Both the position numbers and the translations under genes were made by a program. Positions 40,526-63,925 of a stretch of 64,000 nt of DNA are shown here, piece by piece. Where the stretch lies: contig OZ004587.1 in NCBI GenBank assembly GCA_963924555.1, positions 7,146,075-7,210,074 on the forward strand, given 5' to 3'. The notes below the pieces were generated by a model. It was not told the origin of the DNA and did not search any database. It saw only the letters and a list, made by a program, of their open reading frames with translations. The stretch comes from Crambe crambe. Taxonomy: Eukaryota; Porifera; Demospongiae; Poecilosclerida; Crambeidae. Within the stretch, counting starts at the first letter, position 1; every line of letters starts with the position of its first letter.

Positions 40526-43500
40526 TCAGTATCTTTCCAGTTTTCCAAGAGAAGTGTAAACAGCTTTCTTTCTATCGACAAAACCACTTGTAGTATGGTA
40601 TGCAAAGACAACAGTATTCTTGTCGTTAAGAGCAATAGACATATGTTGAATGTTACGGTTTGTATGGGTGAGTCGATCAAGATTTACTTTAAATTCTTTT
40701 ATAGGAGATGTTTTATACTGTCGTCCTGTCAGAATTATTGCATCATTTAGCTTGTTCCATGTTGATATGACATGTCCGTGCTGATTCAGTGCCACTGCTG
40801 TGTGTTTATTTCGAGACACAGCATCAAAATCAAGCATGCACTGTTGTATTTTAGGAGCATCAATACCGAAGAAACCAACTGCAAATGAGTATGATCCCAT
40901 TTGAGTGAAGGAGAACACAGCTGTTCCAGCATTGTTGAGGGAAACAGACACTTTTGTACAGTGGTTTAAAAGCTTCTCTTCTTTACCTCTCCAGCAAATA
41001 ATGCCATATTGAATATCAATATCACCCACCCTATAAAAAGTCTCTCTTTGAAAGAAACCTCTTTCGTAAGTGACAATTACATTCCCTTTGTTGTTTAACG
41101 TCAAAGATGGATTCTTTCCAGTAGCGACCAAAGAAGGTTCCGAGATCCACTCGATCGATAAATCTGCTGTTTTCAGTTGTCCCACTCTGTAGTAGCATCG
41201 TCTATGGAAAAACTGTTCGGAAACCTCCACAATAATTCCACTATCATTCATACTGATTTGAGAATACTTGCCAGCATGGTATTCCTGGTCGCCAGTTTTC
41301 CATTCAATCCCTGAGTTGACTTTGGTTATTTTTCCAATGCGGTAATATGACGTACTCAGGATTTGATGTCTGTATGTCTGCAGGACCCATCCTTGGTCAT
41401 TGATAGCAATGGAAGGGTTTTTGCGTTTTGCAGAGCAGTCAACCTCCAAGGAGCTACGAGTGAACTCAAGAATGGCTGGAGGATTCCCTGGGGCAATATA
41501 AATTATAGCAACTGAAAAGCATGAACCTCTGAATAAAGGACACAATGAGGGCAACCATTTTGTTCCTTGTAGAAAGGTTTGGAGGTAGAAAATGTTGGGA
41601 ACCTTGAGAAGAACCCACCATGTATGCAAACACTAAGTGCAGTACAGTAGAAAACCTCCAATAAAGGACCCTCCGAAGTAAGGATGCAATACAGTAGACC
41701 CTCTAATCTGCCTCTCATCAAAGAACCATCTAAAAGCACCTTTGTATAATTATAGCTAATATATATATACTCACAAAATAAACCTCTCTACGAAGAAAAC
41801 CCAACTAGCTATAGACCTATAGCTCTAACACTATCAATATCCCAGGGCTTGTATTAATATTAACTATATACACTACCAAGTTCTAGCTAGTTAAATAAAT
41901 GCAGTGACTATCGGATCTTACTTTTATCGAAGATTTTCTTCTTGTTTACCAACATACTGCTTATGCCGTGTCTTTCGAAGAAGCTTCTATTGTTGTCTTG
42001 AGATATGATCTTGCTGATTTCATTGGTCAGCGAATGAGGATATGCCAAAGCCAGTATTGTGCTTCCTCCTTTAATCTGGTGTAAGTACATTGCGTTCGAT
42101 ACACCTGACAAGAACTCCTTACAGAAATCTTCTTGTAAATCTATGACATCTTCTAGAGTGTATTTACTTGGATCTTTCTCCAAAGAGACTTTAATTTTTC
42201 TGTGAGTTGAAGGAAGTTTCTGTACATTTTCCCATTTTTGTATATACTCTTCTGCTGTAACATTATTGCTCAATCCTCAAATCTTTTTAGCATACTGATC
42301 AATTTTGTGTTGAAGTTGCTCACTACCTAAGGCATTAATGGCTACTTTCAGAAGGCTGAAGTGTATGGGATAATAATTTTTAGTCGACGTCGTTGAAGCT
42401 GGACATCTAACATTCTTCATCAGGTCAGCTAGGTATGAAGAGTATTCCTGATGAAGCTCTGAGGGTAACATTGGGAGGGCTTCAATCACTTGATGAGGCT
42501 GGACATTATGAATCTTTAGGGAAGCTATGGTTTCACTTGTAAGGTGGGAGAGTTCAAGTTTGAGGGTGGCCTGGTGAGATGAATTCTTGGGACTCTCTAG
42601 GATCAGTTGGAATTCCCGGGTCTTCTGGATAAGCGAATGATAATTCTCCCTGTTCTGTGTACCTGTAGGTAGTGAATGATTGATCTCCTCATAATAACAT
42701 TGTGAACTCCCTCTAATTTCAACCCGCCCAAAGGGGGACTATTATACAATGAAACCCATCTACCACCTTTAATGAGACCACCTCACTATAACCTCTCTAT
42801 TAAGGCCACTCCAAACAGCACCTATCAGTGAAACCTAAGCTGTCTAATCAGACCACCCTATAATGAGACCACAATGGAGTAGAGGTGATCTCATCAATCA
42901 TAGGGTGGCCTGATTAGACAGCTGATAGGTGCTGTTTGGAGTGGCGCGGCCTTCCCAACAGTATAACTAATCAGATCACCCTACAATGAGACCAAGGCCA
43001 TTCCACAGCAACTATTCCTGCTATTTTGACCATTTGTTCTTGGCAGGTTACATTAATCTAAATACCTTGAAATGGATCTCCGCTTGGTCTCCTATTAATT
43101 GAAATGGGGTACACCTGGATGCCCCTGATATGAATGCATTGAATCAAATGCTCACAAAAAAAATCTGCAACATTTGGTTTGCAAATAGAGTTGGTGAGTA
43201 CTGGGATAAGGTCTGAAGCAATGACCCATCGTACCCATATGCTCCCTGAACGGACTTTGAAGTGAATCAGAGCGTATTCTGACAGTGGAGGTAAGAAGTG
43301 TCCGCTCAGTTCCTTTCGGATTTCGTCCAATTCATATAGCGTCACCTTTTCTGGATCCAAATCAATTTTTGCCACAACATCACAATAAGTTGGTGAAACC
43401 TCTTTTCTTCCAGGCCAGAATCTGATAAGCTCGGATATTGTTGTCTTTTTTTTGAAGGCCAATAGGTTAGTGGAATATTTCTGCATTTCTTCTTTCAGTT

Positions 43501-62200: not shown

Positions 62201-63925
62201 TACTGTGACTTCTTGAGCTCAAAGTTGGAGGATATTATAATCTACTATAATATCCTCCAACTTTGAGCTCAGAAGTCACAGTAGATTCAGAACTGCTAGA
62301 ATTATTGGAATTTCCCTACTTTACCTTATTCAGGTCAGGGGTCGATGCAGGAATCCTAAAGGGGGGGGGGGTGCTAACTCTATGCTTAGTGTTATGATTA
62401 ATGATATAAAGTTAGTACAAATAGGTTAGCTAGCTAATTGCGTGATATGAACATCCTATGCACCCCCTCAGTCTGCATCCACTACACTGCTACTAGATGG
62501 GCAAGTCCATGGTATCCTATGTAGGATGATTTTGTCACTATGATGGTCGACTATAACTAGCTACTGTATTATAAATCCTATAATTTTCAGCTCCCAGTTT
62601 TGAAGCATAGCTACCTGCTCATAAAATTGCCCCCACTCCAGATTATTATTAAATTCATTTATCTTTTTTGATTATAATCATAGCTAGCTAGTTGGGGGAG
62701 TGACAGTTCAGGCATGCTTTCTAACTGAATTCATTGGTAATTCATTACTTCCTATTGTTTGCTTACTGTTGTTTGTTTACATGTAATGTTTATTATACTC
62801 ACAGTAAGTATCAGGTGACCTTGGAACTTCTCTTTCCCATGGTGGTGGCATATTTTGTATATTTGCTGCAAACAAAACAAAATAAACAAAATTACAGTGG
62901 ATATACTTCATGGTAAGAGACTAGCTACCAATGCTTTCTTGGCTATATAGCTACAGTTACCAATATCATCCAGTTCCTTGATAGCATCCTTGTGACCCAA
63001 AGATTCAGTGGATGAGTCGTGAATACACATGTACAATAACATGAAGCCATATTCCCCTCCCTTTGAGGCCAATTTCAGGATCAAGGTTGACTTATCCTGT
63101 AGGTAGAAGGGACTCGTAAGTAGTTCCCTATCCTCATCACTGCTCGCTAGTTGGTACTTCAGGAGGTAGGGATACAGGATGGAGATGTCAGGCCATGGTC
63201 TTATCTTGTAATAACAAGAGTAGAAAATATCTCGGTTTATGAAGTTGCAGGAGTGTTTTTGCATGAAATCTCTGGAAATCGTTCCTCCGAAGCTTATAGA
63301 TTGCTCAGGAGAAGTCGACATTAGTGGGGTGGGTGGAGTGAGTTCCTCATGTGTATCCCGTACATTCGTTTTTGATGGAATAGCCATGTTTGGCAGTGGA
63401 ATACCTATAGTGTTATAGGTTGAAACCATGTAGCATGTAGCATCAGCGTGGACAGAGCAGCTTACGTATTCATATTGTGGGAGGAAAACTTACTAGAATC
63501 AGGTTGAGGTCCATATTTTTCTGGGCTTCCTATAGAAAAATTTATAATGAGAGAGTATCTCAGCCACACTACTCTCTATAATAGCAAGTTATTCTACCTG
63601 GAGGTATCTCTTGTTGTTTTGAATACTCTTCTTCAAGATGAGCAAGTATATCTTCATATTTCTTTTGGTTCTGTCTCATATAGCTTACAATTTTGTGATA
63701 GTTTAGACTACTTAACTTCACTCTATGTTTTATCTCCGTCACAAGAACACAAGCTTTGTCATCAGCGGACAAGTTTGATAAAGGGTCATTGATTCTTTCG
63801 TAAACACTTTGAGAGATCAGTCTTTCCATATCAAGATAGTGCAAGATTTCTCTATCTCCTTTTAGAGTGATTTTCAGCATTGGAGTGCAACTGCACAGAG
63901 TCTTTGACTCCCTTGACTCAGCCAT
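59291..63925 (-). CDS. array gene G5: two CARD-like domains, middle domain, propeller
   Basis: Exons: 63925-63598, 63529-63494, 63404-62961, 62865-62803, 62131-62069, 61809-61108, 61037-60966, 60905-60768, 60276-59291; 2832 nt, 943 residues, all eight introns phase 1, no lesion. Residues 1-109: CARD-like (MAESRESKTLCSCTPMLKIT ... VYERINDPLSNLSADDKACV ... LEEEY). About 122-269: Thr/Pro-rich start, then the second CARD-like domain (INRDIFYSCYYKIRPWPDIS ... LLTSPFYLQDKSTLILKLAS). 312-545: middle region (MHVWNFLDYHILEFVINKFG, LLPPLSEYAVLYY, TWTMPPILEEK). 546-615: two acidic Ser/Asp-rich linker exons absent from G4. 616-943: six propeller repeats (PRIALNDNNHMIEVHK, YPSVALNDHGKVVEIHE). The longest member of the array. 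G4 begins 112 bp past its stop, so spacing is very tight. Confidence 0.82.
62154..62327. mobile_element. AAGGTAAAG palindromic MITE
   Basis: 174 bp in a G5 intron, 22 bp from the exon at 62131-62069. The arms include TGAGCTCAAAGTTGGAGGAT and its complement, nearly touching at the centre, so it would fold into one long hairpin. Confidence 0.8.

Follow-up and report, generated by a model that had tools for sequence, protein, structure and literature searches.

A death fold at one end and a propeller at the other is the plan of APAF1. We found the same end-to-end plan in a tandem array of paralogous genes of the sponge Crambe crambe, in a 64,000-nucleotide (nt) stretch of contig OZ004587.1 (positions 7,146,075 to 7,210,074; hereafter the window), although no NB-ARC was found in the array and its propeller is not of the WD40 type. 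Closer systems have been described by Kaur et al. (2021, PMC8195603). In Amphimedon, 357 proteins were reported, and most of their architectural types consist of one to three death-like domains, a TRADD-N domain and a variable C-terminus. In amphioxus and an oyster, the same source reports proteins composed of a DED, TRADD-N and a WD40 propeller.

The Crambe crambe genes share with the NCOA6-clade TRADD-N proteins of Amphimedon the death-like unit, the putative TRADD-N, the variable C-terminus, the expansion in a sponge and a turn with Gly-Ser or Gly-Cys. The initial annotation of the window knew of no named family with such an architecture, a claim that falls because the same architectural class is already reported in PMC8195603. 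The Amphimedon C-termini named in section 10 of that paper are ankyrin, SH3-LRR, kinase, MATH, SH2, PDZ, caspase, PNPase and HD; neither a propeller nor NACHT is among them in the text of that section, Figure 4 and the source data lying outside the comparison. The amphioxus and oyster proteins have the same order of death fold, TRADD-N and propeller (with a linker in amphioxus), but their propellers are WD40, whereas that of Crambe crambe is a non-WD, lectin- or sialidase-like propeller with bacterial relatives, and its genes have extra CARD-like or Death domains in front. Sponge NLRs are another close system (CARD/DEATH-NACHT-LRR; for example PMC12909245): the NACHT-LRR genes of this genome have the first CARD-like domain, CARD1, and the middle region in common with the array, in which neither NACHT nor LRR was found.

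To the AFL/AAL fucose lectins, PLL lectins and sialidases, the likeness lies in the predicted fold: identities are about 5-13%, with no PDB sequence match and no Asp boxes. No description of this propeller variant was found in the text of the open-access literature searched, figures and supplements lying outside the search. What appears to be new is therefore limited to a combination, a sponge DED-TRADD-N chassis with a non-WD lectin/sialidase-like propeller, which would form a counterpart of the NLRs free of a nucleoside triphosphatase (NTPase). A NACHT domain behind the sponge chassis is likewise unmentioned in the text of PMC8195603 that was covered.

Layout of the array

Five paralogues lie on the minus strand at 40526-63925, in the order G5 (ATG at 63925) to G1 (stop codon ending at 40526). 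The proposal of a tandem array of five same-strand paralogues is borne out, with outer limits that are exact to the start and stop codons. The spliced models, predicted from sequence without transcripts, are open over 865 (G5), 824 (G4), 448 (G3), 709 (G2) and 723 (G1) residues, the last with one exon skipped. All modelled introns of the five genes (14/14) are GT-AG and phase 1; the acceptor of G5 exon 2 has two options, 63404 or 63284. Since the exon boundaries are uniformly phase 1, each domain would be an exchangeable cassette. Separate linker exons are modelled in G5 (exon 4, acidic and serine-containing, 60768-60905) and G4 (exon 4, 55613-55726), both with GT-AG phase 1 boundaries, and in the splice model of G1 (exon 2, 44130-44249).

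The array runs past the window. In the genome searched (143 Mb, 119 contigs), there are two further propeller-middle-CARD2 exon sets, G6 and G7, which are exon sets only and have no splice models. The whole array thus comprises seven sets over about 36 kb (C10:7186600-7222777).

The propeller

The C-terminus is predicted to fold into a six-bladed propeller with a predicted local distance difference test score of 94, in agreement with the six propeller-like repeats first noticed there. The propeller exons lie at 59291-60276 (G5, exon 5), 54382-55406 (G4, exon 5), 50318-51339 (G3), 45484-46511 (G2, exon 3) and 40526-41487 (G1, last exon, from identity comparison and the splice model). The four others are 51, 52, 27 and 23% identical to that of G5 (51% for G4), and the G3 and G4 propellers are 92.6% identical in amino acids to each other. 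A genome search with the G5 exon recovered G4 (E 3e-97), G3 (3e-100), G2 (2e-11) and G1 (5e-13). These identities and E values argue that the kinship is not due to chance. Genome-wide, 26 stretches match the propeller.

The closest folds to the predicted structure are sialidases, fucose lectins and NHL propellers, and the Brat NHL propeller scores level with the lectins. The initial annotation had called the propeller WD-type; a WD40 or APAF1-type propeller is rejected, as 0/5 window propellers have a Pfam WD40 match and 0/5 have a WD dipeptide. A sialidase enzyme was rejected as well: the fold is alike, but the Asp-box pattern matches 0/5. By sequence, the propeller has no PDB match of weight. 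It has relatives in scattered bacteria; the protein search with the propeller profile (A2) gave 45 matches among 4325 candidates. Full-length G4, compared with 5.8 billion proteins, gave 7077 candidates and none at E 0.01, and none of the 55 pattern matches in viral contigs is a relative.

In the propeller tree, G3 to G7 form one clade and G1 and G2 another, and both clades hold rows from other contigs. If these rows come from other species, the two propeller lineages would predate their split. The tree is midpoint-rooted and contains 56 of 60 rows, four short ones having been dropped and P0044 and P0045 left out; the long rows C9_L020, P0038 and G2 are of unsure placement. Given that rooting and the unsure long rows, the tree does not decide for or against a bacterial origin of the propeller in recent times.

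The ratio of nonsynonymous to synonymous substitution rates (dN/dS) is 0.11-0.37 in five close paralogue pairs of the 13 computed, the other eight having saturated dS, and the frames of G6 and G7 contain some intron sequence. For the propeller, the ratio is 0.23 and 0.19 in two close pairs. The data shows purifying selection and hence constraint.

Several observations concern other propeller-bearing loci. P0023, a propeller homologue of 449 residues on a 610-kb public contig, has a C-terminal tail that looks by eye like a plausible death fold. This reading was rejected: among 51 proteins, profile A7 gave an E of 0.018 with the whole protein and of 0.075 with the tail, and there was no Pfam match. 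A cluster of propeller exons at L011-L013 (G000:C12:1698001-1728000) has an in-frame stop in two matches, and no middle region was found in its 30 kb. L020 (G000:C9:2607001-2617000), on another contig, is a separate gene of Death-like, middle and propeller exons, divergent from the array. At L014 and L015 (G000:C16), two near-identical segments about 12 kb apart each contain a propeller exon and a 336-residue Kelch-like open reading frame. A pure (GA)86 run lies just upstream of the G2 propeller exon (46565-46737), and similar (CT)n stretches lie ahead of the propeller exons of G6 and G7 (locus L009).

The middle region

The middle region is likely a DED followed by an RRM-like TRADD-N domain. 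G5 exon 3 (61108-61809) has a DED-like half and then an RRM-like, TRADD-N-type half; the corresponding exons of G4 (exon 3, 56097-56792), G2 (exon 2, 47700-48536) and G1 (exon 3, 43066-43830) match the middle profile, with all three among its building rows. The expectation that every gene has this region held for G5, G4, G2 and G1 and failed for G3, where a remnant of about 67 nt is left. At least 116 copies of the module are present in the genome.

TRADD-N is RRM-like, and the turn that joins its strands 2 and 3 carries Gly-Ser, at times Cys; a DED or a different death-like domain frequently precedes it, and ACT-like folds are among its distant relatives (PMC8195603). The turn could be read in 12 of 17 rows, the remaining five, some of them partial, giving no reading; Gly-Ser or Gly-Cys is present in 11 of the 12, the exception being G5. 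At an E value of 10, the Pfam NCOA6_TRADD-N model matches three exons only in the genome, at 18.4 bits and below its 22.5 cut-off, and in these three exons the middle profile covers both halves at 39-42 bits. The conserved turn and these sub-threshold exons make the TRADD-N naming likely. No window exon matches the NCOA6_TRADD-N model directly, and the middle profile has no PDB match by sequence. TRADD-N structures were not among the rows of the middle-domain comparison, which neither supports nor excludes the naming. A protein search with the middle profile (A3) returned 6 matches among 5814 candidates, one of them the window's own.

The N-terminal domains

G4 exon 1 encodes a Death domain (58896-59178; Pfam PF00531, 38.5 bits compared to a cut-off of 22.6). 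The Death-like exon 1 of G2 (49905-50169) scores 19 bits (E 0.0015), below the same cut-off. Profile A7, built from six Death-like exons with those of G4 and G2 among them, matches death domains in the PDB, such as those of THO complex 1, PIDD and Fas, with a best E of 1.2e-6; it also matches designed proteins at 1e-4.

A second CARD-like domain, CARD2, is found within the window in G5 (exon 2, 62961-63404), G4 (exon 2, 57850-58206, by profile) and G1 (exon 1, 44562-44886, probably with its own start ATG) only. Beyond the window, G6 and G7 have it too. The top structural match of the CARD2 profile (A8) is CARD11, at a weak E of 0.05; seven of the nine rows are CARD11 or CARD9 and the remaining two an endonuclease. 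The Pfam CARD model scores 13.9 bits on the CARD2 of G1, under its 23.9 cut-off.

CARD1 heads G5 (63598-63925) and G3 (53663-53987, called by likeness to that of G5), and the two are 81% identical. It is found in two of the seven sets; the others carry Death or CARD2. For CARD1 of G5 and G3, neither a PDB CARD match by sequence nor a Pfam CARD match was found. The genome contains 90 copies, and the G5 exon is 41-42% identical to exons in L022, L024 and L028. A middle or NACHT match lies within 8 kb downstream of 47 of the 90 copies (two of them the array's own, and 43 copies having neither), compared to a mean of 1.5 at random placement, with a control that ignores clustering and with 44 of 103 NACHT matches used. 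Judged by its sequence, CARD1 is the same domain that heads the genome's NLR-type genes, its own death fold being unproven. The N-terminal death folds of the initial annotation thus stand for the G4 Death domain and, at sub-threshold scores, for CARD2 and the G2 Death domain, and do not yet stand for CARD1. Compared to the one to three N-terminal death-like domains of the NCOA6 clade, the array has one over the cut-off, in G4, and weaker calls for CARD2, the DED-like half and the G2 Death domain.

A chassis shared with NLR-type genes

CARD1 and the middle module are common to the array and to the genome's NACHT-LRR genes. The middle module is followed by NACHT-LRR in L022, L023 and L028; in L027 it is followed by LRR, and NACHT had no match there. 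It lies ahead of NACHT and LRR in all three 1000-residue exons scanned. A constant N-terminal unit is therefore followed by a variable C-terminus: a propeller, NACHT-LRR or LRR. Pfam scans of the window's array exons and of six G6/G7 exons gave no NACHT. The genome's NACHT list also has none at the array, with 103 of 232 candidates scored and that of L022 missed. No LRR was found in the array, where the C-terminus is a propeller instead. On a first look the genome has 232 NACHT candidates, and A. queenslandica has 230 NACHT copies (PMC4772301); the likeness of these counts is suggestive only.

At L026 (G000:C11:6957001-6964000), a middle exon lies amid AIG1/MMR_HSR1-type guanosine triphosphatase (GTPase) exons and short Death-like open reading frames. 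A GTPase form of the chassis was rejected there: AIG1 and MMR_HSR1 are clear, but a splice that would place the GTPase behind the middle exon is not evident from the exon order.

Degenerate exons and neighbouring genes

In the splice model, G3 consists of CARD1 and the propeller only. Its middle exon is a truncated start (52331-52414), of which 52332-52398 is 91% like G4 56699-56765. The remnant extends to the margin of a perfect inverted repeat of 154 nt (region 51808-52344), with an overlap at the edge of the arm at 52191-52344. The start of the G3 propeller exon and its acceptor lie in about three tandem copies of 115 bp (51281-51637). G1 has a second middle-type exon (41922-42662) with one in-frame stop at 42277-42279, and the open halves on both sides match the middle profile.

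Elsewhere in the window, the minus strand at 349-5135 encodes a small and apparently secreted protein in several copies, of which some contain Tyr-Gly repeats. A 928-residue open reading frame with WD-type repeats lies on the plus strand at 10621-13404, presumably HIRA-like. Two similar frames about 6.9 kb apart (30488-30856 and 37399-37758) have a glycine-zipper-like stretch, and a Ser/Glu-rich frame, mostly an 18-base repeat, is located just downstream of G1 (39295-39996, minus strand).

Discussion

With moderate confidence, we read these genes as cytosolic sensor-adaptors on the genome's own NLR chassis, which would signal by death-fold assembly and whose ligands may be glycans. An intracellular sensor or adaptor, as first suggested, stays the best reading. 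The CARD-like and Death N-termini would nucleate homotypic death-fold assemblies, and DED plus TRADD-N would serve as a hinge or switch that connects the death folds with the variable C-terminus, as modelled for TRADD-N proteins in PMC8195603. The propeller would be the recognition end, in the place held by NACHT-LRR in the same genome's NLR-type genes. Given the lectin-like fold, glycans are a sensible starting hypothesis for the ligand, and microbes or damaged compartments could conceivably be their source. However, propellers that score equally well bind RNA or proteins. Diversifying selection, sought as the mark of a sensor, was not found among the computed pairs, which give no sign of an arms race. 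A bolder form of the same idea is an NTPase-free 'lectin inflammasome', a family of the sponge lineage in which a glycan-sensing, bacterial-related propeller was exon-shuffled onto a CARD/DED/TRADD-N chassis and sugar alone triggers polymerisation without a NACHT motor; we consider it rather unlikely.

The same fold scores and selection measurements would suit a scaffold or adaptor that is not a sensor, with one constant host protein as the partner of its propeller and with a role in bridging or relaying NLR and caspase signalling. Brat scores level with the lectins, and the purifying selection on the propeller gives no sign of an arms race. However, the propeller has multiplied to its 26 matched stretches and sits where NACHT-LRR sits in genes with the same front end, leaving the scaffold on the unlikely side. 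Alternatively, CARD1 and DED-TRADD-N without an NTPase could cap or titrate NLR filaments, making the genes regulators or decoys of the NLRs. That CARD1 is common to NLR-type genes, that the scanned array exons have no NACHT and that G3 is reduced to CARD1 and a propeller all agree with this, but five of the seven sets carry Death or CARD2 in place of CARD1, and we find the decoy quite improbable.

A decaying array, in which one or two genes are active and most copies are their remnants without function, would account for the lost middle exon of G3, the stop in the second middle exon of G1 and the lack of any CARD2 found in G2 or G3. Such decay is very unlikely: the models of G5, G4 and G2, and of G1 with one exon skipped, are open, dN/dS is low in the close pairs, and both propeller clades contain rows from other contigs.

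If the sensor-adaptor reading is true, it would explain a conserved stretch of 230 residues in sponge NLRs for which Pfam itself has no match, and one genome would provide a natural experiment, in which the same CARD1 and DED-TRADD-N front end is placed on either NACHT-LRR or an NTPase-free propeller. It would then become testable whether death-fold signalling needs an NTPase motor, whether TRADD-N acts as a hinge, and whether animals sense microbial sugars in the cytosol by lectin-type propellers.
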